Under the pieces are notes generated by a model, which searched no databases, was not told the origin of the DNA, and saw only the letters and a list, made by a program, of their open reading frames with translations. From Candidatus Solibacter sp. (GTDB taxonomy: Bacteria > Acidobacteriota > Terriglobia > Bryobacterales > Bryobacteraceae), in contig JANYAH010000056.1 of assembly GCA_025361425.1 (NCBI GenBank), positions 1-36,830 on the forward strand: DNA of 36,830 bases, in the 5' to 3' direction. Positions 1,029 through 35,827 of the stretch are shown one piece after another. Numbering within the stretch: position 1 is the stretch's first letter; every line of letters starts with the position of its first letter. Position numbers and translations under genes: made by a program.

Positions 1029-1469
1029 ATGCAGGAAAACGCCAGCCATACACCGGAAACTATCGAGCGGTTTTTGGACTCGACGCTGGAAAGTGTCGAC
1101 TCTGCCGAAGAACTGGCGGTCGGCATGGCTCAGCGCGCCGGTATGGACGAAGACGGCCTCATGCAGATCGGCATGGCGATTCGCGAGTCCGTCGTGAATG
1201 CCGTGGTCCACGGCAACCGCTACAGCGCCCACAAAAAGGTCCATTTCGCGGTGACCTCCGATGGGCGGCGGTTCACGGTCCGAATCGGCGATGAGGGCGA
1301 GGGCTTCGATTTCAATGCGATCCCCGACCCTCTGGCCCCGGAAAACCTGCTACGCACTTCAGGACGGGGTATTTTCCTGATCCGGTCTTTCATGGACGAT
1401 TTCCAGATGCGGCGACTGGAGTCCGGGGGGACCGAAGTAACTTTGGTCAAGAATTTGGTGTCTACATAG
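1029..1469 (+). CDS. Anti-sigma factor serine kinase, RsbW/SpoIIAB type
   Basis: This 146-residue cytoplasmic protein is a single GHKL-type ATPase domain. The N box is visible around E53-N57 (IRESVVNAVVHGN), the G1 box at D88 (GDEGEGF) and the G2 box at 112-115 (SGRGIFLIRSF). The length fits stand-alone RsbW/SpoIIAB proteins, which bind a sigma factor and phosphorylate an STAS antagonist. I chose the ATG at 1029 because the domain begins just after it and AAGG lies 11 bases upstream; the frame is open further upstream over sequence overlapping the propeller gene. The STAS partner follows 31 bases downstream. No sigma factor or PP2C phosphatase is present nearby, so the target is unknown. Confidence 0.85.
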   Translation: MQENASHTPETIERFLDSTLESVDSAEELAVGMAQRAGMDEDGLMQIGMAIRESVVNAVVHGNRYSAHKKVHFAVTSDGRRFTVRIGDEGEGFDFNAIPDPLAPENLLRTSGRGIFLIRSFMDDFQMRRLESGGTEVTLVKNLVST

Positions 1470-1500
1470 ATTCTGTGGTTTCAGCCAGGAGGCATATTCA

Positions 1501-1845
1501 GTGAGCGTAAAATTAACTACTCGGCAGGTGGGTGACGTAACGGTGATAGACGTAGCGGGGCGAATCACGCTGGGTGAAGGCTCCAGCGTCCTCCGCGACG
1601 CGATGCGCGATATGGTGAGCAAGAACCAGAAGAAGATTTTGCTCAACCTGGGCGACGTGTCCTATATCGATAGCTCCGGAATCGGCGAACTCGTATCCGG
1701 ATTCACCACAGTAACCAACAGCGGCGGTGCGTTGAAGTTGCTCAACCTCAACAAGCGGGTCAAGGACCTGCTACAGATCACGAAACTCTACACCGTCTTC
1801 GATGTTCACGAAGACGAGGCGGGCGCCATCCGCAGCTTCGCGTAG
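1501..1845 (+). CDS. STAS-domain anti-sigma factor antagonist, RsbV/SpoIIAA type
   Basis: This is a 114-residue STAS domain. The motif YIDSSGIGEL at 55-64 contains the serine (S58 or S59) that is phosphorylated by the partner kinase in this family. The start is GTG at 1501, with a strong AGGAGG (1487-1492) 8 bases upstream. In characterised systems the unphosphorylated form binds the RsbW-type kinase and frees a sigma factor. Adjacency to the kinase gene supports a partner-switching pair, here in the order kinase then antagonist, opposite to the classic rsbV-rsbW order. Confidence 0.88.
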   Translation: MSVKLTTRQVGDVTVIDVAGRITLGEGSSVLRDAMRDMVSKNQKKILLNLGDVSYIDSSGIGELVSGFTTVTNSGGALKLLNLNKRVKDLLQITKLYTVFDVHEDEAGAIRSFA

Positions 1846-1853
1846 GGCCAGAG

Positions 1854-1913
1854 AAGGGGACAGACGCTCGCTGGTTGACAGACGACAAAAGGCGATCGCC
1901 TGTCCCCCTTTTT
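1854..1913 (+). terminator. Hairpin plus T-run after the STAS gene, containing a GACAGAC repeat (copy A)
   Basis: GGGGACAG (1856-1863) can pair with CTGTCCCC (1900-1907), followed by C and TTTTT (1909-1913), as in a Rho-independent terminator for the plus-strand gene. Inside lies one copy of a repeated 28-bp element: arms GACAGACGA (1877-1885) and TCGCCTGTC (1896-1904) with one mismatch, and a 12-bp perfect palindrome AGGCGATCGCCT (1890-1901). It abuts the stop codon of the convergent thiS gene. Confidence 0.55.
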
Positions 1914-2115
1914 ATCCTCCACCGACGAACTGCACGATTTCGAGCTGCGCACCCGTGCGCAAAACCGTCTTCGGCCAGAACGGTTGCTTGACAATCCGGC
2001 GGTCCAACTCCACTGCCACGCGTGCCGGGTCCAGCTCCATCTGCCGTAATAAACCCAGAATTGTCTGCCCTTGAGGGGCAGTTTGCGGCTCCCCGTTGAC
2101 GGTGATCTCAATCAT
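1912..2115 (-). CDS. thiS: Sulfur carrier protein ThiS
   Basis: This is a 67-residue beta-grasp protein that begins MIEITVNGEP and ends EIVQFVGGG. The C-terminal glycines are the site that is adenylated and thiocarboxylated to deliver sulfur to the thiazole ring of thiamine. The length and the LRQMELDPARVAVELD pattern fit ThiS rather than MoaD, which is longer and has a different core. No thiG, thiF or thiO is adjacent, so it is an orphan here. It starts 70 bases from nuoA on the opposite strand and probably shares the divergent spacer for its own promoter. Confidence 0.85.
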   Translation of the reverse strand: MIEITVNGEPQTAPQGQTILGLLRQMELDPARVAVELDRRIVKQPFWPKTVLRTGAQLEIVQFVGGG

Positions 2116-2121
2116 GTTTGG

Positions 2122-2151
2122 TTGACACCCCTGTTTTCAAACCATTATAGT
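2122..2151 (+). promoter_or_regulatory. Sigma-70-type promoter of the nuo operon
   Basis: A consensus -35 TTGACA (2122-2127) and a -10 TATAGT (2146-2151) are separated by 18 bases in the 69-base gap between thiS and nuoA. Transcription would begin near 2158, leaving a leader of roughly 27 bases before the nuoA ATG. Confidence 0.7.
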
Positions 2152-2184
2152 CAGATTTGATCCCTCTCCCAACGCGGAACACGC

Positions 2185-2577
2185 ATGCCTAAGTCCTACA
2201 CTGAGCTGTATTTCCCTGTCCTGCTCCAAGCTCTCATCGCGATGGGGTTGGCCGCCGGGCTGTTGACGGTTTCGTACCTCCTGGGCAAGAAGGTGCGCAA
2301 TCGCATCAAGGACATGCCCTACGAATCCGGCATCGTGCCTACGGGCGATGCGCGGCACCGCTTCAGCGTGAAGTTCTACCTGGTGGGCATGCTTTTCATT
2401 TTGTTCGATATTGAAGCCATTTTCCTGTATCCCTGGGTGGTGGTTTATCGCGATCTCAAAATGTTCGGCTTTTACGAGATGCTGGTCTTTGTAATCTTGA
2501 TCCTTTCGGGATTCTTCTACATCTGGAAGAAAGGGGCTCTCGATTGGGCCGAAACCGGACACTCCGGGCGGAAGTAG
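2185..2577 (+). CDS. nuoA: NADH-quinone oxidoreductase subunit A
   Basis: This 130-residue membrane subunit of complex I has three hydrophobic segments at about 10-34, 62-88 and 95-114. The family signature is present: YESGI at 46-50, then FSVKFYLVGMLFILFD with D75 and E77 in the following segment. It sits at the junction of the peripheral and membrane arms near the quinone site. It is the first gene after the TTGACA promoter. The next gene starts 10 bases later and is nuoC, so the usual nuoB is missing from its expected place. Confidence 0.95.
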   Translation: MPKSYTELYFPVLLQALIAMGLAAGLLTVSYLLGKKVRNRIKDMPYESGIVPTGDARHRFSVKFYLVGMLFILFDIEAIFLYPWVVVYRDLKMFGFYEMLVFVILILSGFFYIWKKGALDWAETGHSGRK

Positions 2578-2587
2578 AACAAGCACG

Positions 2588-3061
2588 ATGCTACCCGATC
2601 ATTTGAAAGAGCACTCGGCAGCTGTGGCTGTGGACGCATTTGATGCCGACGCCGTTAAGGCCGGCAAGTTCCAACACGGCGAGTTGACCCTGGAGATCGC
2701 TCCGGGCAAAATCGCCAGCGTTTGCGGATTTCTCAAATACGATCAGAAATTCATCCGCATCAGCACGGTTACCGCCGTCGACCGCCACCCGGCCGAACCG
2801 CGCTTCGAAATTGTCTATCACCTGCACTGCATCGAACGCAATCAGCGGCTGCGCCTGAAGTGCCGCCTCGCTGGCGCCGAACCCGCGATCGATTCCGTCA
2901 CCGGAGTTTGGCGCGGCGCCAACTGGTACGAGCGCGAAGTGTTCGACCTCTTCGGTGTCCGCTTCCTCAACCATCCGGATTTGCGCCGCATCCTGATGCC
3001 GGACGATTGGGAAGGGCATCCGCTGCGCAAGGACTATCCCATAACGGGGCAGAGGGTTTAG
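2588..3061 (+). CDS. nuoC: NADH-quinone oxidoreductase subunit C (30 kDa)
   Basis: This 157-residue peripheral-arm subunit carries the family signature near its C terminus: WYEREVFDLFGVRFLNHPDL followed by RRILMPDDWEGHPLRKDYP. It has no cofactor and helps hold the connecting module together. It is separate from NuoD, not fused as in Escherichia coli. The stop is followed two bases later by the nuoD ATG, so translation is probably coupled. Confidence 0.95.
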   Translation: MLPDHLKEHSAAVAVDAFDADAVKAGKFQHGELTLEIAPGKIASVCGFLKYDQKFIRISTVTAVDRHPAEPRFEIVYHLHCIERNQRLRLKCRLAGAEPAIDSVTGVWRGANWYEREVFDLFGVRFLNHPDLRRILMPDDWEGHPLRKDYPITGQRV

Positions 3062-3063
3062 CC

Positions 3064-4293
3064 ATGAGCGAATCGGGCGTTCCGGAGTTGGTCGGTGCCG
3101 GGGTGGAGGAGGAGCGATCGCAAAGCGGCGGCCGCCGCATGGTCCTCAACATGGGGCCGCAGCACCCTTCCACCCACGGCGTTCTGCGCCTGGTGCTGGA
3201 ACTGGACGGCGAAACAATTGTTTCCTGCCAGCCGGAGATCGGCTATCTACACACCGGCATTGAGAAGGAATTCGAGGTTAAGAACTACCAGCAGGCGGTC
3301 ACCCTGACCGACCGTGTGGACTACCTGGCGCCGCTCTCCATGAACCTGGGCTATTGCCTGGCGGTGGAAAAACTGCTGCAACTGGAGATCCCGCCGCAGG
3401 CCCAATGGATGCGCGTGATGCTGACCGAACTCACGCGCCTCAACAGCCATCTGGTGTGGCTGGGCACGCACGCGCTCGATATCGGCGCCATGACGGTGTT
3501 CCTCTACTGCTTCCGCGAGCGCGAGGAGATTCTCAAGATCTTCGAACAGTTCAGCGGCCAGCGCATGATGACTAGTTACTTCCGCATCGGCGGGCTGGCG
3601 CTGGAACCGCCGCGCGGGTGGCACGAGCGCGTCAAGACGTTCATCGACGCCTTCCCCAGCCGCATCGACGAGTACGAAAACCTGCTCACCAACAACCGTA
3701 TCTGGATTGGCCGCACCAAGGGCGTCGGCGTAATTTCGCTCGAGGACATGCTGGACCTGGGAGTCACCGGGCCTATGCTCCGCGCTGCCGGCTTGAAGAT
3801 GGATGCCCGCAAGGACGCGCCCTACTCCAGCTACGAGAAGTTCGATTTCGAAGTCCCCACGCGCACCGAAAACGATGTCTACGCGCGGTACCTGCTGCGC
3901 CTGGAGGAAATGCGGCAGAGCCTGCGCATTATCCGGCAGGCCATGGACGGTATGCCGCCGGGCCCCTGGAAGGCGGACGCGCCCCACGTGGTGTTGCCCG
4001 ACCGCGAAAAAATGAAGACCCAGATGGAGGCCCTCATTTTCCATTTCAAGATTGTCACCGAGGGCTTCCGCGTTCCCGAAGGCGAAGTCTTCCAGGTGAT
4101 TGAATCGCCGCGCGGAGAACTTGGATATTACGTGGTCTCTGACGGCACCACCATGCCTTACCGCGTGCATATGCGCACGCCCAGTTTCGGCAATCTGCAG
4201 GCCGTGCCTAAAATGGTGGAAGGTGTTTTGATCGCGGATGTGATTGCTTCCATCGGCAGCATGGATTTCGTTCTGGGGGACACAGACAGGTGA
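3064..4293 (+). CDS. nuoD: NADH-quinone oxidoreductase subunit D (49 kDa)
   Basis: This 409-residue peripheral-arm subunit forms the quinone-binding site together with NuoB. The signature MGPQHPSTHGVLRLVLELDG begins at residue 30 (H34 and H39). The RVDYLAP segment carries the tyrosine near the quinone head group. The C terminus is canonical (SMDFVLGDTDR). I chose ATG 3064, right after the nuoC stop; the frame is open further upstream but that sequence is the shadow of nuoC. The N-terminal 25 residues are a charged, low-conservation extension. Confidence 0.96.
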   Translation: MSESGVPELVGAGVEEERSQSGGRRMVLNMGPQHPSTHGVLRLVLELDGETIVSCQPEIGYLHTGIEKEFEVKNYQQAVTLTDRVDYLAPLSMNLGYCLAVEKLLQLEIPPQAQWMRVMLTELTRLNSHLVWLGTHALDIGAMTVFLYCFREREEILKIFEQFSGQRMMTSYFRIGGLALEPPRGWHERVKTFIDAFPSRIDEYENLLTNNRIWIGRTKGVGVISLEDMLDLGVTGPMLRAAGLKMDARKDAPYSSYEKFDFEVPTRTENDVYARYLLRLEEMRQSLRIIRQAMDGMPPGPWKADAPHVVLPDREKMKTQMEALIFHFKIVTEGFRVPEGEVFQVIESPRGELGYYVVSDGTTMPYRVHMRTPSFGNLQAVPKMVEGVLIADVIASIGSMDFVLGDTDR

Positions 4294-18262: not shown

Positions 18263-18279
18263 CGGAAGCGTAGTCGAAG

Positions 18280-18428
18280 TTTTCGTTGGTGCACGGGAAG
18301 CTGGTGAGAATCCAGCACAGCCCCGCTACTGTAAGCGCGGAGAATCGGCCGAACAAGCCACTGTTCCGGTAACGGAATGGGAAGGCCGGCAGATTTGATG
18401 AGGCGCAAGTCAGGAGACCGGCCGGCGA
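18280..18428 (+). ncRNA. Cobalamin (adenosylcobalamin) riboswitch
   Basis: The conserved landmarks occur in the family order: GGTGCACGGGAAGCTGGTG at 18288-18306, then AATCCAGCACAGCCCCGCTA and CTGTAAGCGCGG, a variable stem around 18340-18378 (CTGTTCCGGTAACGGAATGG), a GAAGGCCGGC arm, GATGAGGCGCAAGTCAGGAG and the closing ACCGGCC. The GAAGGCCGGC and GACCGGCC arms pair. It lies 36 bases upstream of the TonB-dependent receptor ATG and should lower its expression when cobalamin is plentiful. GGGAGGAG (18451-18458), just before the start, is the likely ribosome-binding site and could be sequestered, suggesting translational control. Confidence 0.95.
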
Positions 18429-18464
18429 TTCGCTACAGCACGGCTCTCGAGGGAGGAGCCAAAA

Positions 18465-20642
18465 ATGCTACGAAACGTTGCGGGCCTGCTGGCCTGTTGC
18501 CTGACTTTTTCCGCCTGCCTCTCGGCCTCCGAGATCAAAGGCAAAATTATCGACCCATCCGGAGCCCCGGTTTCCGGTGCACAAATCGCCGCCGTCAACC
18601 GCGTCGGCGTAGTCGCGCGGACCACCGCCGCCACCAACGGTAGTTTCCAGTTGGACGCTCCTCAAACCTCGGACACGCGGCTTGTCGTCGCCGCGCCCGG
18701 CTTCAGCACACGCACCCTGGCGCTCGATCAAGCAGCCAGCGTGCAGCTCGAAATCGCCCCGCGGACGGATTCCGTGCAGGTAGTGGGCTCCACCATCGAA
18801 CTCCCCGTCACCCTGCAAGCATCCAGCGTGGACGTAATTCCCAGCAGCCGCGTGCGGTCAAGCAATCAACCCTTTGCGATGGATCTGCTGCGCTACGTTC
18901 CAGGTGTGGCGTTCAATCAATCCGGCGCGGCCGGCGGCGTGACCAGCCTCTTCCTGCGCGGCGGCAATGCCAACCTGAACCTGGTGGAAATCGACGGCGT
19001 TCCGGTGATTGGATTCGGTGGCGGCCTGGGTTTTGATTTCGCTCACATCCCAAGCGAAGCGGTGGACCACATCGATGTCATCCGTGGCGCGCAATCCGCC
19101 GTCTATGGCTCCTACGCCAACTCCGGCGTCATCGATTTCGTCACTCGCCGTCCGGAAGCCGCCCCCCAACTCGACCTCCTCGCCGAAGGCGGCAGCCACA
19201 ACGAACGCCGCTTCGCCATCACCGGCACGGGGAGCGTGGCCGGCTTCGGCCTGCTGGTCTCCGCGTCGCGCTACGATACCGATGGCCAGGTGACCAATGA
19301 CGACTACCGCAACGAAAGCGTGCTACTCAACCTGACCCGCAGGTTCGGCCGGCAGAGCCTCTCCATGCACGGTTATTTCGATTCGAACGAAGTCGGCCAA
19401 CCCGGCCCTTGGGGTTCCGATCCCAAGCACACCTTCAGCGGAATCGACACCGTCAGCCGCGGCAAGAATAACTTCTCCGAGTACGGCGCGCATTACCAGG
19501 CCGACCTCTCGCCCCGCGTGCGCCAGGAATTGTTCGGCAGCTTCTTCCTCAACAACAGCGGCTTCCAGAGCCAATACGGCTTTAGCTTCAACAAGGATCT
19601 CCGCGTTCAGGGCGAGGCCCGCACCATCGTCAGCGTCTCGCGGCACGATACGGCATCGTTCGGCGTCACCGGCGGGCACGAAGAAGTGAAGAATAGCTTC
19701 ATCACCGACGCCGGCTTCTCCACCTTTCCGATGGAGCGCAACGAAATCGCCGTCTACGCCGAGGACCGCTATGAGGTGGCAGGCCGCCTGTTCCTCAGTG
19801 GCGGCGTGCGCGCCGAATTCTTCCGCACGCCCTCAATTCCCACCGACGGTTACTCCCGCCCGCCCTTTCCGGAAAGCCATATCTCGCGCGTCAATCCTAA
19901 GCTTTCGGCGGCGTATGTGGCCGGCGGCGCGCGCCTCCACACCTCGTTCGGCATGGGCCTGCGTCCGCCCTCCGGCTTCGAGCTGGCATTCACCAACAAC
20001 CCCGCACTCAAACCCGAGCGGACGCGCAGCTTCGATGCCGGCGTGGAGCGGAAGTTCGGCAATCTGCTGACGCTCGACGCCACTTACTTCTATAACCGCT
20101 ACTATGACCTCATCGTCACCCTGGGCGGCTCGTTGACTACGTTGAGTCACTATAAATCCGGCAACCTGGCCAACTCCCAGGCGCAGGGCGGGGAGTTCTC
20201 GGCGCGTTTGCGACCGGCCCGGTGGGTGTTCGTCACCGCCTCCTACACGCTGCTGGAAACCCGCATCCTATCGCTCGAGGGCTCCAGCAATCAGGCGCCG
20301 CTGCCGTTTGCCGTGGGACAACAGTTGACGCGCCGTCCCGAACACTCCGCGAATGTGGTTGCCACCTTTACCCGCGGACGGCTCGCGGCCGATCTCTCCG
20401 GCTACTTCCGCGGCCGTACGCTCTACGAGGAGCCGAGCTACGGCGCGAGCAACGGGCTGTTCTGGAATTCCGGCTTCGCCAATGCCGGCGTCAACCTGAA
20501 TTACAATATCGGCCGCGGCGTGACTGCTTACGGCAACTTGCGCAATGCCCTCAACCGCCAGTATGAGGAAGTGTTCGGATTCCCCTCGCCGAAACTGAAC
20601 TTCGTGGCTGGGCTAAAATGGACCATTGCGAGGACGCAATGA
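18465..20642 (+). CDS. TonB-dependent outer-membrane receptor, probable cobalamin transporter (BtuB role)
   Basis: This 725-residue protein has a signal peptide (about 1-22, GLLACCLTFSACLSA). A carboxypeptidase-regulatory-like domain follows at about 23-100 (IKGKIIDPSGAPVSGAQI). The plug domain comes next, with SSNQPFAMDLLRYVPGV, LFLRGGNANLNLVEIDGVPV and VIRGAQSAVYGSYANSGVID, and the rest is a beta barrel ending in FVAGLKWTIARTQ. The cobalamin riboswitch directly upstream is the evidence for a corrinoid substrate; the family as a whole also carries siderophores and other ligands. The start is ATG 18465, after a strong GGAGG. Confidence 0.9.
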   Translation: MLRNVAGLLACCLTFSACLSASEIKGKIIDPSGAPVSGAQIAAVNRVGVVARTTAATNGSFQLDAPQTSDTRLVVAAPGFSTRTLALDQAASVQLEIAPRTDSVQVVGSTIELPVTLQASSVDVIPSSRVRSSNQPFAMDLLRYVPGVAFNQSGAAGGVTSLFLRGGNANLNLVEIDGVPVIGFGGGLGFDFAHIPSEAVDHIDVIRGAQSAVYGSYANSGVIDFVTRRPEAAPQLDLLAEGGSHNERRFAITGTGSVAGFGLLVSASRYDTDGQVTNDDYRNESVLLNLTRRFGRQSLSMHGYFDSNEVGQPGPWGSDPKHTFSGIDTVSRGKNNFSEYGAHYQADLSPRVRQELFGSFFLNNSGFQSQYGFSFNKDLRVQGEARTIVSVSRHDTASFGVTGGHEEVKNSFITDAGFSTFPMERNEIAVYAEDRYEVAGRLFLSGGVRAEFFRTPSIPTDGYSRPPFPESHISRVNPKLSAAYVAGGARLHTSFGMGLRPPSGFELAFTNNPALKPERTRSFDAGVERKFGNLLTLDATYFYNRYYDLIVTLGGSLTTLSHYKSGNLANSQAQGGEFSARLRPARWVFVTASYTLLETRILSLEGSSNQAPLPFAVGQQLTRRPEHSANVVATFTRGRLAADLSGYFRGRTLYEEPSYGASNGLFWNSGFANAGVNLNYNIGRGVTAYGNLRNALNRQYEEVFGFPSPKLNFVAGLKWTIARTQ

Positions 20643-26729: not shown

Positions 26730-28298
26730 TTATTTCGGCGTCGCGTGGATCGCCACCGGGCGGAATAGCAGATCCTGGAAATCGTAGCTGAAATCCGTCA
26801 GCGGCGAAACCGCCGCCATGCGCACCTCATGGATCGTGCCATCGGGCTTCAGCGTGAAGGTCACGTAGGCGTCGGCATCCAACGTGCGATTCTTCCAGCG
26901 CGCCACGAAAGTGTCGTATTGCCAGTGCTCCAGATCGCCCGCCAGGTCCGGAGTATGCGTGAAGTGGAGGGAGAGCTTGCCGGCATGCTCCTCAATACGC
27001 ATATCGCCATACCAGGCGTCGCGGTAGCGGCCGGCATAGCTGGCCAGCGGCAGCGCCGGCTTTGTGTTGAGGTTGCGTTGCCCGGCCGCCTTTTTGACGG
27101 CTTCTTCGCCCTCGGCCCGCTGCTTCTTCAGGCGCGTGGAATAGACCGCCACCCAATCGGCGTCAGGCACGCCCAGGTAGTGATCGATCACGGTATTGGC
27201 GATGGCGGCATGGGCGGCGGTGACCTCCTGGTTAGTGAGAATCACGATGCCGAGCTTCAGTTCCGGGACCAGCGCGGTGCGGGAAACGTAGCCCGAGAGC
27301 ATTCCGGTGTGGCCCACCAGGCGCTTGCCGCGATAGTCGCGGAGATCCCAGCCAAGGCCGTACGCACGGAAATTCGGCTGCGTGTCGGCAAAGGCGGCGG
27401 GCGAACTCTGAGCTAGTTCCTCGATCGGCAGGATGGTCTGCGCGGACCACATTTCCCTGGACTGCGCCGCACTGAACAGGCGCGTCTTGCCGAATGTGCC
27501 GCCGTTGAGTTGCACGGTCATCCACTTCGCCAGATCCGCCACGCAGGTGATGATGGCTCCGGCGGGCGCGCTGGTGTCCATGTCCTCCTGGGGCAGCGCT
27601 TCCAGCTTGCCCGAAAGCGTGTTGTGCGGGGTCGCCACGTCCTTGCCCTGGGTCAGCGCCGCGACCTCGGTGAATGTGTTGGTCATGCCGAGAGGGGTGA
27701 AGATGCGGTCCTTGACAAAAGCGTCCCAGCTCTTGCCCGTGACCGCCGGAATCAGTTGCCCGGCCACGATGTAGAGCAGGTTGTCGTAGGCATAGGCGCT
27801 GCGGAAACTGGTGGTCGGTTTGATGAAGCGCAGACGCTTGACAATCTCCTCGCGGCCCAGGTCTCCGGGCGGGAAGAACATCAGGTCTCCGGCGCCAAGA
27901 CCCAGGCCGCTGCGGTGTGTCAGCAGGTCGCGGATGGTCATCTCGCGTGTGACGTAGGCGTCGTACAACTGGAAGGCGGGCAGGTGCTGGACTACGGGGT
28001 CGTCCCAGTGGATCTTGCCTTCATCCACCAGCATGGCCAGCGCGGCGGTGGTGAACGCCTTGGTGTTGGACGCGATCCGGAACCGCGATTGCGCGGTGAC
28101 CGGCGCCGCCTCGCCCTGCTTGCGCACGCCGTATCCTTTGGCCAGCACGAGGTTGCCGTCCTTGACGATTGCCACCGCGATGCCGGGAACATCGAATTCC
28201 TTGCGGGCGCGCTCCACTACCCCATCGATATATTCCTGTGCCGGGCACAGCGCCGCCGCAAGCAACACAGCGGCCGGCAGGCGAAAGCGATTCAGCAT
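26730..28298 (-). CDS. Serine hydrolase, beta-lactamase/D-aminopeptidase family (class C) with DUF3471-like tail
   Basis: This is a 522-residue exported protein with a signal peptide (about 1-20). The penicillin-binding-type catalytic motifs are S77-N-T-K80 (the SxxK nucleophile), Y171-D-N173 (YxN) and H330-T-G332 (KTG equivalent). The C-terminal 100 residues (LPLASYAGRYRDAWYGDMRI onward) match the DUF3471-like domain common in acidobacterial family members. It probably hydrolyses a D-amino-acid peptide or ester; true beta-lactamase activity is not implied. I start at ATG 28298, which gives the signal peptide and has GGAGAG 7 bases upstream. It lies 13 bases downstream of rsmI. Confidence 0.88.
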   Translation of the reverse strand: MLNRFRLPAAVLLAAALCPAQEYIDGVVERARKEFDVPGIAVAIVKDGNLVLAKGYGVRKQGEAAPVTAQSRFRIASNTKAFTTAALAMLVDEGKIHWDDPVVQHLPAFQLYDAYVTREMTIRDLLTHRSGLGLGAGDLMFFPPGDLGREEIVKRLRFIKPTTSFRSAYAYDNLLYIVAGQLIPAVTGKSWDAFVKDRIFTPLGMTNTFTEVAALTQGKDVATPHNTLSGKLEALPQEDMDTSAPAGAIITCVADLAKWMTVQLNGGTFGKTRLFSAAQSREMWSAQTILPIEELAQSSPAAFADTQPNFRAYGLGWDLRDYRGKRLVGHTGMLSGYVSRTALVPELKLGIVILTNQEVTAAHAAIANTVIDHYLGVPDADWVAVYSTRLKKQRAEGEEAVKKAAGQRNLNTKPALPLASYAGRYRDAWYGDMRIEEHAGKLSLHFTHTPDLAGDLEHWQYDTFVARWKNRTLDADAYVTFTLKPDGTIHEVRMAAVSPLTDFSYDFQDLLFRPVAIHATPK

Positions 28299-28311
28299 GG
28301 CATGCTCTCCG

Positions 28312-29136
28312 TTACTTCTCCCGCAGCATTTGATCGTACACTTCCCGTTTGGACAGTCCGCGGCGGCGCGCCACCAACTTGATCGCGTCCATCCGCGCCA
28401 TGCCATCGCCGATCAGTGTGTTCACCGCGTCCACCACGGGTGTATCGTCCACCGGCGGCTCCGCGGCCTTACCGATGAGTAGGGTAATCTCGCCCCTGAC
28501 GGTGTCGCGCGAGGCCAGTTGCGCGCGGATTTCGGCGGCGGTGCCGCGCAGGTACTCCTCATGAATTTTGGTCAGTTCGCGCGCCACCACCACGGGCCGC
28601 GGACCGAGGACGGTTTCGATGGCCTCCAGCGATTCCAGGATGCGGTGCGGCGCCTCGTAGAAGATCAGGGTGGCCTGTTCTTCGGCCAGCGCCTCCAGCA
28701 GGTGGGCCCGCTGCCCCTGCTTGGCAGGCAGGAATCCGCCAAAGTAGAAAGCGTCGGTGGGCAGCCCGGAACCGGCCAGCGCGGTGAGCGAAGCCGAGGG
28801 ACCGGGCACGGCTTCGACCGCGATGCCGGCATCGATGGCAGCACGCACCAGGCGGTATCCAGGGTCGGAAACCAGCGGCGTGCCGGCATCGGAAACCAGC
28901 GCGATCACGGCGCCAGAGACCAGCCGCGCGGTGAGTTCTTCCGTGCGCTCCGCCTCATTGTGGTCGTGATAGCTGACCGTGGGCTTATGGATATTGTAGT
29001 GATCCAGCAGTTTGCGCGATTGCCGCGTGTCTTCGCACGCGATCAGATCGGCTTCGCCCAGCACGCGCACCGCGCGATAAGTGATGTCCTCCAGGTTCCC
29101 GATGGGCGTAGCCACCAGGTAAAGCAGACCGGCCAT
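28312..29136 (-). CDS. rsmI: 16S rRNA (cytidine1402-2'-O)-methyltransferase RsmI
   Basis: This 274-residue tetrapyrrole-methylase-fold enzyme methylates the 2'-O of C1402 in the ribosomal decoding centre. Diagnostic segments are LVATPIGNLEDITYRAV at the N terminus, ACEDTRQSRKLLDHY, ALVSDAGTPLVSDPGYRLV, VPGPSASLTALAGSGLPTD, and FYEAPHRILESLE. Length is typical. An extended -10 (TATACT) lies only 6 bases upstream of the ATG. The serine hydrolase follows in the same direction. Confidence 0.96.
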   Translation of the reverse strand: MAGLLYLVATPIGNLEDITYRAVRVLGEADLIACEDTRQSRKLLDHYNIHKPTVSYHDHNEAERTEELTARLVSGAVIALVSDAGTPLVSDPGYRLVRAAIDAGIAVEAVPGPSASLTALAGSGLPTDAFYFGGFLPAKQGQRAHLLEALAEEQATLIFYEAPHRILESLEAIETVLGPRPVVVARELTKIHEEYLRGTAAEIRAQLASRDTVRGEITLLIGKAAEPPVDDTPVVDAVNTLIGDGMARMDAIKLVARRRGLSKREVYDQMLREK

Positions 29137-29370: not shown

Positions 29371-30273
29371 ATGAAGGTGAATAGAACCCCGGAGTTGAAG
29401 TTCGTTGGTGAGCGCGGAGAAGAATTGGCAGTGTGGGAGTGGCCCGGGGAGGATCCGCCGCTTCTGTTCGCGCACGCCACCGGATTTCACGGCAGGTGCT
29501 GGGACCGCATCGTCCGCATGTTTCCGGAGCGTCACTGCCTGGCGTTGGATGCGCGCGGACACGGGCGTAGCAGCCAGCCCGACCTGCCGTACCACTGGCG
29601 AATCTTCGGGCGCGACATGGCGGCGGTGGCGGAGCACTGGGACATTCGCGATGCCATCGGTATCGGCCATTCCAGCGGCGGGCACACCACCGTGCAGGCC
29701 GCGGCGCTGCGCCCACACACCTATCGCGCGCTGCTGCTGGTGGACCCCACCATTTTTCCGCTGGAATACTACGGCACGGAACCGCCGGACGCCTCCTTCA
29801 CGCTGCGGCGGCGCAATATCTGGGCATCGCCGGATGAGATGTTCGAGCGCTTCAAAGCGCGTCCCCCCTTCGCCCGTTGGCTACCGGAGATTCTGCGGGA
29901 TTACTGCGATTACGGCGTACTGCCGCGCGATGGAGAGTTTGTGCTGGCCTGCCCGCCCGCGGTAGAGGCGTCGATTTATCTGAACTCCAAAGAGCCGGGC
30001 TCGAACATTTATGCGGAGGTCGCGCAGTTGCAGCATCCCGTAGTGGTGATGCGCGCCGGCAGGGAACGGCAGCCTGGGATTTTCGATTTGGCCGCGTCGC
30101 CCACGGCGGCGGATCTGGCGTCGCGATTTGCCCATGGGCGCGAAATCCTGCTGCCCGAAGCCTCGCACTTTATCGCCATGGAACAGCCCGAAATGGTGGT
30201 GGATGAGATTCGCCAGTTGCTGGCCGCTACTTCTGTTCGAACAGCGAGGCCCGGCGAATCCGTTCGCCCTTGA
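29371..30273 (+). CDS. Alpha/beta hydrolase
   Basis: This is a 300-residue cytoplasmic alpha/beta-hydrolase-fold protein. The nucleophile elbow GHSSGG puts S101 as the nucleophile. The oxyanion segment HATGFHG is at 35-41, ALDARGHGRS follows at 58-67, and the catalytic histidine is H266 in PEASHFIAMEQPE. The substrate is unknown; the architecture is that of small-molecule esterase, lactonase or C-C hydrolases. I start at ATG 29371; the frame is open further upstream only across the two hairpin repeats. Its last 47 bases overlap the end of the convergent fusion gene. Confidence 0.85.
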   Translation: MKVNRTPELKFVGERGEELAVWEWPGEDPPLLFAHATGFHGRCWDRIVRMFPERHCLALDARGHGRSSQPDLPYHWRIFGRDMAAVAEHWDIRDAIGIGHSSGGHTTVQAAALRPHTYRALLLVDPTIFPLEYYGTEPPDASFTLRRRNIWASPDEMFERFKARPPFARWLPEILRDYCDYGVLPRDGEFVLACPPAVEASIYLNSKEPGSNIYAEVAQLQHPVVVMRAGRERQPGIFDLAASPTAADLASRFAHGREILLPEASHFIAMEQPEMVVDEIRQLLAATSVRTARPGESVRP

Positions 30274-32425
30274 ACACCACCAGGGAGATGCGCTCCGTGG
30301 CCGCAATTTCCTGAAGCGGGTTGCCGTCCACCAGCAGCAGGTCGGCGTCCATGCCCGGGCGGATGGCTCCGATGCGCTGGGCCGCGCCTAGCAGTTTCGC
30401 GGCGTTGGCCGTGGCCGCTTGCAGGGCCACCGTCACCGGAATTCCAGCCTCCACCCAGAGCTGCAACTCGTGGTGCATCGAGGGTCCGTGGAAGACCATC
30501 GGATTGCCCGAATCGCTACCCATCACCAGGGGGACGCCCGCCTTCCAGGCGCGCAGCAAGTTGGCGCGCGCGGTGTCGAGCGCGTGCTGGAACAACTCCG
30601 CCTTGACAACGTCGGCGCCCTTTCCGGAGCCGACGAACTCCCGGGTCTCCTTCAGCAAACGCGCGGGCACCACCTGCTGCACCAGCGAACGGTTCAGAAC
30701 GTCCGGTTTGCCGCCGAAGTAAAGTGCGTAGGCCTCGGCGACGGCGAGCGTCGGGTCGAGATAGACGCCCTCCCTGGCCATGCGTTCCAGCAAGCGGTCT
30801 GGGATCTCGTCGCGCCAGGATCCGTGTTCCACGCTGGCGCTGCCAATCTCCACCGCGTCGGCCACGTCGCGGGCGTCGCCGGTGTGGGTGGCCAGCGGCA
30901 GGTGCTGCGCGTGCGCCTCCTCGGACACGGCGCGCACCAGAAGCAGATCCAGCCGGTCGTAGCGCATCCCCGGGCCCCATCCCGCTTCCAGGATCGCCTT
31001 GATGCCATCGACCCCTCTGGCTTTGAGTTCGCGGACCTGTTTGCGGGCTTCCTCGGGCGTCTTGGGAGTGCGCACCAACTGCGCCTTCACGGTGTCTCTG
31101 ATGGCAACCGGCAGGTGCTCGACGAACTCGGCGCCGTGCCCGCCCTCGGCGGTGAACATGGGTCCGCAAACAAACAGTTGCGCGCCGAGTTTACCGCCAT
31201 CGCCGATTGATTTACGCAGCTTGAAGGAAGCCTCCAGACCGTCGCCCACGCTGCGCACCACCGTGACGCCGCTGTAGAGCAGTGCGGCAGCGGAGTGCGC
31301 CATGGTCTTGTCGACATCGTAGTCCCGAGTGTCCGCTGAGATGCCGCCAGAGGCCGCCAGATGGACATGGGTATCGATCAGGCCGGGCAGCAGCGTTTTG
31401 CCGGCGCCCTCCACGGTCTCGGCCTTCAGTTGATCGGGGTCCGGCGCCGTACCTTGGTAAATCGCGGCGATCTTGCCGTCGCGAACCAGCACCGCTCCGT
31501 TTTCGATGACCTTGCCATCGCCCGTGAAGATCCGCGTGTTGCGGATCAGGAACACGCCGGAGCGCTGCAACTCGCGATAGAGCGCGGCGTTGTTGCCCAG
31601 GTGTTCCTTGCTGTAGGCTTGCCACGCGCCCATCGCCACGAATGGCGCCAGCACGGCCACCACCCAAAGCTTGTTGCGTGGGCGAATCTTTTCTTCCTTC
31701 TCCCAGCGGAATAGCTGCACGGCCAGGAACAAGCCGAGCACCGTGGTCAGCAGCAGCGCGGCGACGGCCAGTGCGTTGTCCCGGAGATTCTGATTGCGGA
31801 AGAAGATGCCCTGGAAACCGCTAACCAGGTAGGAGGCCGGCATGAATTGCGCGAGGGTCTGCGCCCACTTGGGCAGCATCGCTGCCGGAATCGTGGCGCC
31901 GCTGAGGAACAGCATTGGCATGTAGACGCTCTGTATGGCGATGGTGGCTTCGGCCATCGTGTTGGTGACCGCCGCCAGAATCAAGCCGATGGCGCGCATT
32001 GAGCAGACACCGAGCGAAGCCATCAGAAACAGCGAGAACCAATTCTGCGGCAGCGGCATAGCGTAGAGGAAATGGGCCAGCCCCACCAGCAGGAAGAGCA
32101 CCGGAAGAAACAACAGCCAGCCGCTGAACATGGCCGCCACCAGGATGGGGAGCGGCGAGATGGGGGTCACCTTGAAGCGGCGCAGAATATTGGCTTCGCG
32201 CTCCTGCACGCTGCGCATCCCGGCGCCCCACAGTCCGTTGCCCAGAATACCCATCACCAGCACCGTGCTCACGAAATAAGCGATGCCCGCGCCCACCCCG
32301 GCGTGAAACAGTTCGGCGAAAGCGAAGAAGAAGATCAGGGGGAACAGGTAATTGAAGAACAACACGCCGCGGTCGCGCAGCGTCAGCCGCATATTGCTCT
32401 TGAACAGCGCCAGGTAGATTCTCAT
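30227..32425 (-). CDS. ABC-2 permease fused in frame to an amidohydrolase
   Basis: This is a 732-residue protein. Residues 1 to about 243 form an ABC-2-type exporter permease with six hydrophobic segments (near 22-40, 49-66, 94-121, 131-153, 163-181, 217-240) and the EREANILRRFKVTPISPLPI coupling region. A seventh hydrophobic helix is at about 252-270. Residues about 292-732 form an imidazolonepropionase-like amidohydrolase with every metal/catalytic ligand present: H353-V-H355, K476, H514, H534 and D638. With a cytoplasmic C terminus after six helices, the seventh would place the hydrolase outside the inner membrane. The start overlaps the ATPase stop (ATGA). Confidence 0.88.
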   Translation of the reverse strand: MRIYLALFKSNMRLTLRDRGVLFFNYLFPLIFFFAFAELFHAGVGAGIAYFVSTVLVMGILGNGLWGAGMRSVQEREANILRRFKVTPISPLPILVAAMFSGWLLFLPVLFLLVGLAHFLYAMPLPQNWFSLFLMASLGVCSMRAIGLILAAVTNTMAEATIAIQSVYMPMLFLSGATIPAAMLPKWAQTLAQFMPASYLVSGFQGIFFRNQNLRDNALAVAALLLTTVLGLFLAVQLFRWEKEEKIRPRNKLWVVAVLAPFVAMGAWQAYSKEHLGNNAALYRELQRSGVFLIRNTRIFTGDGKVIENGAVLVRDGKIAAIYQGTAPDPDQLKAETVEGAGKTLLPGLIDTHVHLAASGGISADTRDYDVDKTMAHSAAALLYSGVTVVRSVGDGLEASFKLRKSIGDGGKLGAQLFVCGPMFTAEGGHGAEFVEHLPVAIRDTVKAQLVRTPKTPEEARKQVRELKARGVDGIKAILEAGWGPGMRYDRLDLLLVRAVSEEAHAQHLPLATHTGDARDVADAVEIGSASVEHGSWRDEIPDRLLERMAREGVYLDPTLAVAEAYALYFGGKPDVLNRSLVQQVVPARLLKETREFVGSGKGADVVKAELFQHALDTARANLLRAWKAGVPLVMGSDSGNPMVFHGPSMHHELQLWVEAGIPVTVALQAATANAAKLLGAAQRIGAIRPGMDADLLLVDGNPLQEIAATERISLVVFKGERIRRASLFEQK

Positions 32426-34789: not shown

Positions 34790-35827
34790 TTATCGACGAC
34801 GCTCCGCCACCACGGTGATCTGGATATCGCGCGCTTGGCGCACCACCTGCTGCACAATGGTTTCCCCGAACCTTTTCCACCAGGGGCGGGCCGGACTTCG
34901 CCCCACGAAAATCTGGGTGACGCGGTGGGCGCGGGCGAACTCAGCGATGCTGCGCGGCACGTCCTCACCTTCTACCACGTGCGTTTGGATGCGCAGGTTA
35001 CGCGCGAAGCTCATGTGGCGCTCCACGGTTTCGCCGACGCTTTGGGACGGGGCTACGTGAACCGCCAGGCAATCGGCGCGGAGATAGTCCGCCATGCGCT
35101 TGCCGCGGCGGATCAGGTTAGCCGACGAGGGGCGCCCGGTGAGGCAGATGAGGATGCGCTCATCGCGCCGCGGCGCCAACAGTTTCTCTTCCACCTCGTG
35201 GGCCGTGTGGCGGATGGCGAGCTCGCGGAGCGCGGTGAGGTTGGCTTCGGCGAAGAAGTTATCAAGCGCGCGGCGCGCCTTCCCGGAGGCGTAGACCACG
35301 CCGCGCTCGATGCGGTTGCGCAGGGCTTGCGGCGTGAGATCGACCAGCACGCACTCGTCGGCTTCATCCACCACCCAATCCGGAACGGTTTCGCGGACGC
35401 GGACTCCGGTAACGTGCCAGACCTGGTCGTTGAGGCTTTCCAGGTGCTGCACATTCATGGTAGTGAGCACGCCGATTCCGGCGTCGAGCAGTTGGTGCAC
35501 GTCTTGCCAGCGCTTGGCGTTCTTGCTGCCGGGGACGTTGCTGTGGGCGAACTCGTCGACCACGGCCACGGCGGGCTTGCGGCGCAGCACCGCCTCGGTA
35601 TCCATCTCCTCGAATTGGGAACCGGCGTAGGCAATGACGCGGCGCGGCACCAACTCCAGGCCCTCAATCTTGGCAATGGTCTCACTGCGGCCGTGGGGTT
35701 CGAAATAGCCGATGGCGACATCGACGCCCTGTTTGCGGAGGGCCTGGGCCTCATCGAGCATGCGGAAGGTTTTGCCGACCCCCGCGGCATATCCCAGGTA
35801 AACCTTGAGATGGGCGGGGCGCTTCAT
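34790..35827 (-). CDS. KdpD N-terminal sensor domain plus universal stress domain, no histidine kinase
   Basis: This is a 345-residue cytoplasmic protein. It starts KRPAHLKVYLGYAAGVGKT with the Walker A loop at 12-20, and Walker B VVDEFAHSNVPGSKN has D91 and E92; these mark the KdpD N-terminal domain (residues 1 to about 215). A universal-stress (Usp) domain follows at about 223-345. The membrane helices and histidine kinase of full-length KdpD (about 900 residues) are absent, and the gene ends normally. Stand-alone versions occur in other bacteria near kdpABC, so the potassium pump genes may lie beyond the right edge. It probably senses K+ or ATP-linked signals and modulates a Kdp system. 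Confidence 0.85.
   Translation of the reverse strand: MKRPAHLKVYLGYAAGVGKTFRMLDEAQALRKQGVDVAIGYFEPHGRSETIAKIEGLELVPRRVIAYAGSQFEEMDTEAVLRRKPAVAVVDEFAHSNVPGSKNAKRWQDVHQLLDAGIGVLTTMNVQHLESLNDQVWHVTGVRVRETVPDWVVDEADECVLVDLTPQALRNRIERGVVYASGKARRALDNFFAEANLTALRELAIRHTAHEVEEKLLAPRRDERILICLTGRPSSANLIRRGKRMADYLRADCLAVHVAPSQSVGETVERHMSFARNLRIQTHVVEGEDVPRSIAEFARAHRVTQIFVGRSPARPWWKRFGETIVQQVVRQARDIQITVVAERRR

Follow-up and report, generated by a model that had tools for sequence, protein, structure and literature searches.

An ABC-2 permease fused to a predicted outer amidohydrolase domain in Bryobacteraceae, with repeated loss of the metal site among relatives

The fusion gene and its ATPase partner

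The window analysed here is the 36,830-nucleotide contig JANYAH010000056.1 of a Candidatus Solibacter sp. (GenBank assembly GCA_025361425.1; Bryobacteraceae, Acidobacteriota). On its minus strand lies a gene (30227-32425) that joins, in a single frame, an ABC-2 permease, a seventh transmembrane helix (TM7) and an amidohydrolase domain, as judged from the frame translation, Pfam matches and an AlphaFold model. A first-pass annotation had reported this 732-codon frame; its coordinates are right, and the strand, which it left unstated, is minus. The open reading frame (ORF) comprises 732 amino acids plus a stop and begins with an ATG at 32425; since the frame remains open upstream as far as 32620, inside the neighbouring ATPase gene, 32425 is therefore the natural start. 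The Pfam model ABC2_membrane matches residues 5-209 with 74.9 bits (cut-off 26.9) and Amidohydro_1 matches residues 344-722 with 109.1 bits (cut-off 25). Within its own genome, the whole query matches one frame only, at this locus. That genome has 10 places with ABC2_membrane, which include a 669-residue frame at C243 and another long frame, L222, the latter looking, by eye, like a polysaccharide-export-type permease.

The AlphaFold2 model, built from 57 sequences, has a mean pLDDT (predicted local distance difference test) of 90.4 and a pTM (predicted template modelling score) of 0.84. The permease part (residues 1-240; 31706-32425) is predicted to start with an N-terminal helix (2-17), followed by membrane helices TM1 to TM6 at 19-39, 47-77, 91-121, 129-153, 157-174 and 215-237, with two short outer helices (186-192 and 196-210) after TM5. 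This predicted layout, a six-helix core that includes a coupling helix and has short outer helices following TM5, is that of an ABC-2 permease. No ABC-2 structure appears among the matches listed in our fold searches, all of which are accounted for by the hydrolase domain. The permease part is followed by TM7 (residues 249-272; 31610-31681), which is modelled in two pieces (249-258 and 260-272) and preceded by the arginine- and lysine-rich stretch RWEKEEKIRPRNK. A linker helix (residues 273-289; 31559-31609), modelled as helical over 274-288 and carrying R284 and R288, leads into the hydrolase domain (residues 290-732; 30230-31558).

Export pumps of the ABC-2 type are common, and the window gene has the partner expected in such a system. 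The ABC ATPase gene upstream (P0002; 32422-33345, minus strand) starts with GTG, encodes 307 amino acids and is DrrA-like, with intact Walker A and B motifs, LSGGQ, Q-loop and H-loop; its end overlaps the start of the fusion as ATGA, which is the 4-base overlap noticed at first pass. The ATPase-then-permease order, the six-helix ABC-2 fold and the motifs of the nucleotide-binding domain are shared with the DrrAB-type exporters (PF01061; TIGR01188, TIGR01247). However, the window pair stays below the NCBIfam cut-offs for drrA (266.9 of 312.45) and drrB (42.1 of 223.05), and its permease adds the seventh helix and a 443-residue outer domain. An exporter of this design had been called uncharacterised at first pass, and the literature we searched, open-licence full-text papers only, yielded no description of the ABC-2 permease-amidohydrolase architecture and nothing to contradict that statement.

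The side of the membrane on which the hydrolase lies follows from TM7. The six-helix ABC-2 core has both ends in the cytoplasm, so that one additional helix would leave the hydrolase outside. A Kyte-Doolittle scan finds seven hydrophobic windows, the last at 253-271, although it misses helix 157-174 and splits other helices. A hydrophobicity scan recovers the TM7 segment after TM6 in the unfused permeases L070, L071, L072 and L075; in unfused L073 and L074 the segment scores below the 1.5 threshold and the same motif is still readable. Given that unfused permeases already have the seventh helix, TM7 is older than the fusion. In addition, standalone relatives of the hydrolase, chosen among the better hydrolase matches of the family and phylum searches (L230-L249), carry a hydrophobic leader directly before the hydrolase in 20 of 20 cases, several with lipoprotein-like cysteines. 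L005 and L006, two more distant partial hydrolase matches encoded in the same genome as the window fusion, lack such a leader. In other lineages, a separate hydrolase with a signal or N-terminal anchor and a CIA30 domain adjoins ABC-2 genes (L197, L198 and L202). Together, the modelled helices, the unfused permeases and the leaders on standalone and neighbouring hydrolases argue strongly for a seventh helix and a predicted extracytoplasmic hydrolase, in agreement with the first-pass annotation, which had counted helices to the same end; seven of them, an odd number, precede the hydrolase.

The hydrolase domain resembles the Xaa-Pro-dipeptidase/carboxypeptidase group in Pfam as well as in sequence and fold matches to the Protein Data Bank (PDB). 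Binuclear, lysine-bridged amidohydrolases have a characteristic set of residues: an HxH motif, a bridging lysine, two further histidines and an aspartate. The alignment places these in the window protein at H353 and H355 (HxH; 31361-31369), K476 (the expected bridging lysine; 30998-31000), H514 (30884-30886), H534 (30824-30826) and D638 (expected metal ligand and catalytic aspartate; 30512-30514), exactly the positions given at first pass. Domain score, six ligands and fold are thus all those of a binuclear lysine-bridged amidohydrolase, and the ligand loss that marks a pseudo-amidohydrolase is not seen here. The solved proteins closest to it in sequence are Cc2672 (3mtw), which is an L-arginine carboxypeptidase, ochratoxin-type amide hydrolases and the Xaa-Pro dipeptidase 2qs8. 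The best fold matches are 9kov (Z 45.2), 2qs8 (Z 44.4) and 3mtw (Z 44.3), over 370-395 residues, together with 2p9b and 3be7 (Z 44-45) and the ochratoxin hydrolase ADH3 (Z 42). For the ochratoxin hydrolase structures 8ihq and 4c5y, Z is 42.3 and 37.5, and identity to 2qs8, 3mtw, 8ihq and 4c5y is 25-28% over 386-395 aligned residues. The solved chains of this Xaa-Pro dipeptidase/L-Lys,L-Arg carboxypeptidase group are free-standing (399-433 residues), whereas the window domain is fused to a permease, and it falls below the cut-off of the Xaa-Pro dipeptidase equivalog NF051886 (XaaProDiPepCaul; 183.6 of 500). With its full metal site, the window domain is probably a working metallohydrolase, and, judging from these relatives, its target is likely to be an amide or peptide bond beside a carboxy-terminal amino acid.

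Distribution of the fusion and repeated loss of the metal site

The same uninterrupted architecture recurs beside the same ATPase across Bryobacteraceae, and the first-pass view that this is a real exporter context and no chance readthrough, for which recurrence in related genomes was the proposed check, thereby stands. In the family search, 164 of 237 genomes have a match at E<=1e-40, not all of them fusions; four of these (G127, G188, G204 and G266) show no permease match at 1e-15. A scan of genome_contigs gave 17 loci, all within this group of Acidobacteriota (Candidatus Solibacter and other Bryobacterales). On plasmids (72,556 records), there were 21 matches, none covering 80% of the query.

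For comparisons within the family, 168 permease ORFs remained after 17 duplicate loci (L028-L044) had been dropped. The alignment holds 158 ORFs, omitting the duplicates L182 and L193, the two pieces into which a frameshift splits L014, the outgroups L071-L075 and the other permease L192. From the tree used for scoring, we left out L188 (two pieces) and the frame-shifted, disturbed or cut L018, L049, L189 and L190, and added L071-L075, L195, L196 and L199, to give 160 rows. Contig-cut L057, L120, L179, L180 and L187 and frame-shifted L153 were not scored, and L054, L070 and L184 were set aside as unfused, leaving 143 scored fusions. Among the latter, L135 and L151 (a gapped contig) are single rows with a disturbed permease start. 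In 136 of the 143, the end of the ATPase frame lies no more than 21 bases from the permease start; the ATPase is 44-220 bases off in four others, and the contig ends first in two.

Beyond Bryobacteraceae, a sample of 396 genomes of the phylum contained at least 2 confirmed fusions, L195 (906 residues) and L196 (735 residues), a lower bound as only two candidates per genome were scored. L195 (2252-4969, minus strand), from another family of the phylum, is a three-part protein, ABC-2 permease, amidohydrolase and C-terminal CIA30 domain, with an adjoining ATPase gene. An unfused counterpart, L198 (2741-6713, plus strand), encodes an amidohydrolase with an N-terminal anchor-like helix and a CIA30 domain, and immediately after it an ABC ATPase and an ABC-2-like permease. 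The five order- or class-level permeases L071-L075 have no hydrolase in frame. In a tree of 44 hydrolase domains, the 16 sampled fused Bryobacteraceae domains form one clade (support 100/100), with L195, L198 and L196, the last on a long branch, beside it at lower support (80/96); L197 and L202, both operon-type, group apart from these as a well-supported pair. From this placement, the association of such hydrolases with ABC-2 systems probably arose at least twice. As a separate observation, the permease L199 (3900-4757, minus strand), from another family of the class, is unfused and yet nested in the fused clade of the quick permease-plus-ATPase tree; transfer followed by loss of the domain is possible. 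NCBI annotation also uses the name 'ABC transporter permease/M1 family aminopeptidase', which would pair an ABC-2 permease with a different metallohydrolase family, an unconfirmed likeness. Four long M1 frames from 121 genomes of the class contained no ABC-2 domain, and the stretches fetched around them no ATPase like P0002, which is no proof of absence.

While the window protein has a complete metal site, many relatives do not. The six ligand columns read HHKHHD in 86 of the 158 aligned ORFs. Of the scored fusions, 83 keep all six ligands (hereafter active) and 60 have lost at least one (inactive), with three or more gone in 49; L135 belongs to the former and L151 to the latter. L019, which is 69% identical overall to the window protein, reads DRARRG, and L045 and L046, near the window lineage, read QRKHHE and QRKHHD. 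In 39 of the 60 inactive fusions, part of the barrel is deleted in frame (at least 40 positions missing between residues 420 and 559). By contrast with the hydrolase site, the motifs of the ATPases in the tree persist on both sides: of the 81 active rows, 80 show LSGGQ (the other is gapped) and 78 show GPNGAGKT; of the 57 inactive rows, all show LSGGQ and 55 show GPNGAGKT. Rows without GPNGAGKT are gapped, except for one that reads GPNGAGKS.

We counted the losses on two trees, both from quick searches under LG+G4. The permease-plus-ATPase tree, from which the hydrolase was excluded, requires 22 site changes, or 23 if losses are irreversible (19 by a strict criterion), and 13 deletion events. 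Collapsing branches with support below 80 leaves the 23 losses, 19 strict losses and 13 deletions unchanged, and without L151 the loss counts (22-23, strict 19) each fall by one. The tree of the retained hydrolase parts gives 16 site changes and 9 deletion changes. The deletion ends differ among lineages (428-534, 434-535, 423-554 and 420-528), which favours several events, although recombination that spread one deleted form may account for some lineages. Deleted members also occur in G212, G213, G258 and G264, whose assemblies have one to three contigs, and therefore are no fragment artefacts. For the half-barrel protein L170, AlphaFold gave a confident model (pLDDT 89.8, pTM 0.86) that matches the same kind of amidohydrolases first, albeit weakly (best E 5.5e-13); among the matches listed, target TM-scores are 0.39-0.54, with root-mean-square deviations of 8-15.

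The hydrolase part of inactive members is under purifying selection that is a little relaxed but strong. In 15 inactive pairs, the ratio of nonsynonymous to synonymous substitution rates (dN/dS) of this part is 0.05-0.23 (median about 0.16). Of 16 active pairs, two were saturated; for the other 14 the range is 0.06-0.23, with a median of about 0.11. Permease parts have 0.01-0.16 in inactive and 0.03-0.20 in active pairs, and dN/dS is higher for the hydrolase than for the permease in 14 of the 15 inactive pairs and in 10 of the 14 active ones. These Nei-Gojobori values, from hand-picked close pairs some of which share a member, indicate constraint rather than its exact strength.

The residues that persist differ from those that decay. 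All 83 active members have H430, which belongs to a GGH motif; it remains in 1 of 10 strictly dead full-length members, in 3 of 11 that are partly substituted and in none of the 39 with a deletion. D520, E533 and N641 are, like H430, present in 83 of 83 members with all ligands. On the other hand, every one of the 60 non-active members retains R284, R288, G342, T344, P347 and D351, as well as G647, T672, A676, G686, G720 and R725. Conservation of scaffold, linker and C-terminal part in proteins that have lost the active site means that selection acts on these, whereas it does not always act on the chemistry.

Possible roles of the outer domain

To our knowledge, how outer domains shape ABC-2 export is poorly understood. 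With moderate confidence, we favour the explanation that the system is an exporter with a hydrolase-derived outer face that is probably catalytic in the window protein but a pseudoenzyme in many of its relatives, and that has a non-catalytic role besides. The pump would be a DrrAB-like ABC-2 exporter from one ATPase and one permease gene, presumably with two copies of each. An ancestral seven-helix permease would have gained a secreted amidohydrolase of the Xaa-Pro-dipeptidase/carboxypeptidase group on its extracytoplasmic C-terminal tail, with TM7 standing in for the signal peptide. In the window protein, the domain would probably cut an amide or peptide bond beside a carboxy-terminal amino acid, and its substrate would most likely be the cargo of the pump; such cargo processing is plausible. 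Independently of catalysis, the domain is likely to have a structural role, forming part of the outer face as a lid, a docking surface or an assembly surface, and many relatives would retain only this contribution. That the metal site is often lost with the domain kept fused under selection argues that catalysis is not the sole reason for the fusion, and we propose that a second, non-catalytic role explains why the domain persists after the site is gone. A bolder version is that the peptidase-like domain became an obligate gate or exit chamber, with catalysis lost repeatedly and catalytic, substituted and half-barrel versions now side by side; this we put forward tentatively.

Several points weigh against the favoured explanation. 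The outward direction of transport is presumed from homology, and one scored fusion, L051 (G220), has no ATPase in the 1,494 bases upstream (L051:1-1494). No cargo gene was recognised at the fusion loci and no neighbouring gene points to a pathway. The somewhat higher dN/dS of inactive pairs implies some relaxation, inactive members with a single ligand change could be mononuclear enzymes, and the retention of all six ligands in 83 of 143 means that catalysis matters in many lineages.

Of the other explanations, one is that the hydrolase is merely tethered to the membrane and cleaves external peptides or amides, for scavenging or detoxification, with no mechanistic link to the pump. The standalone relatives do resemble ordinary secreted hydrolases, but related hydrolases are tied to ABC-2 systems elsewhere, either fused (L195, L196) or adjoining (L197, L198, L202), and retention of a domain under selection after loss of its metal site is not expected of a mere tether. 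We regard this explanation as unlikely, if still to be reckoned with.

The domain could also be purely structural or sensory everywhere, with the intact metal site of the window protein binding a ligand that it does not process. At least 16 site changes with the domain retained, and a scaffold whose residues stay invariant while those of the active site decay, speak for this, and there is a precedent in Pseudomonas aeruginosa, whose pseudo-dihydroorotase is reportedly a separate subunit, part of a soluble enzyme and a member of another subfamily. According to the published account (PMC7053772), aspartate transcarbamoylase activity depends on this inactive dihydroorotase-like chain. As an amidohydrolase-fold protein that is inactive itself and yet needed by its partner, the chain is an analogue for the inactive fusions; the window protein retains its own metal site. 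Against such a role everywhere, 83 of the 143 scored fusions keep every ligand and, there, all of H430, D520, E533 and N641, as would be expected under selection for catalysis, which makes a purely structural or sensory domain rather improbable.

It is very improbable that the fused domain is a relic drifting to loss and the fusion a neutral accident. Ligand loss and deletion are repeated, two unfused permeases (L184 and L199) fall inside the fused clade of the quick tree, and dN/dS is slightly higher in inactive pairs. However, neutral decay is disfavoured by the low dN/dS in the inactive hydrolase parts; moreover, the reading frames stay open, and three unfused relatives (L070, L184 and L199) stand against 143 scored fusions. 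Finally, joining of two genes by assembly error or read-through, as might be suspected from the single in-frame TAG between the permease and hydrolase halves of L054 (G269; 1462-3675, plus strand), is ruled out for practical purposes by the same unbroken frame in scores of assemblies, including those of G141 and G165, each in 4 contigs, and that of G016, in 2.

Under the favoured explanation of a hydrolase-derived outer face, comparison of members with intact and damaged sites would separate cargo processing from the building of an exit. It would also offer a route to the cargo, since an active domain should have a substrate similar to the exported compound.

Gene context and further observations

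Of the 99 fused loci for which 750 or more bases of upstream sequence are available, 49, L170 among them, have a gene that looks PfpI/DJ-1-like by eye, upstream of the ATPase on the same strand and 5-159 bases off. It is found at 33 of 47 inactive versus 16 of 52 active loci, a link that falls short of significance when kinship is taken into account (8 independent pairs, median p 0.625), and the window has no such gene upstream of its ATPase. As a key to function, this neighbour was therefore dropped.

Two other genomes showed further features. In G115, a second ABC-2 permease (L208:2603-4102, plus strand) sits beside its own ATPase and has, behind its membrane part, a different tail of about 230 residues without a Pfam domain. 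In G045, a 43-residue frame downstream of the fusion (L211:6793-6921, plus strand) repeats the last 24 residues of the hydrolase with 92% identity.

Elsewhere in the window, the minus strand encodes a beta-lactamase-fold serine hydrolase with DUF3471 (26733-28406), adjoining a 16S rRNA methyltransferase gene, and a KdpD-like protein with the sensor part only (34793-35827), whose best NCBIfam match is a KdpD-like non-kinase family, below cut-off. On the plus strand, a cobalamin riboswitch (Rfam RF00174, 106.5 bits) at 18270-18440 lies just upstream of a 725-residue ORF (18465-20642).

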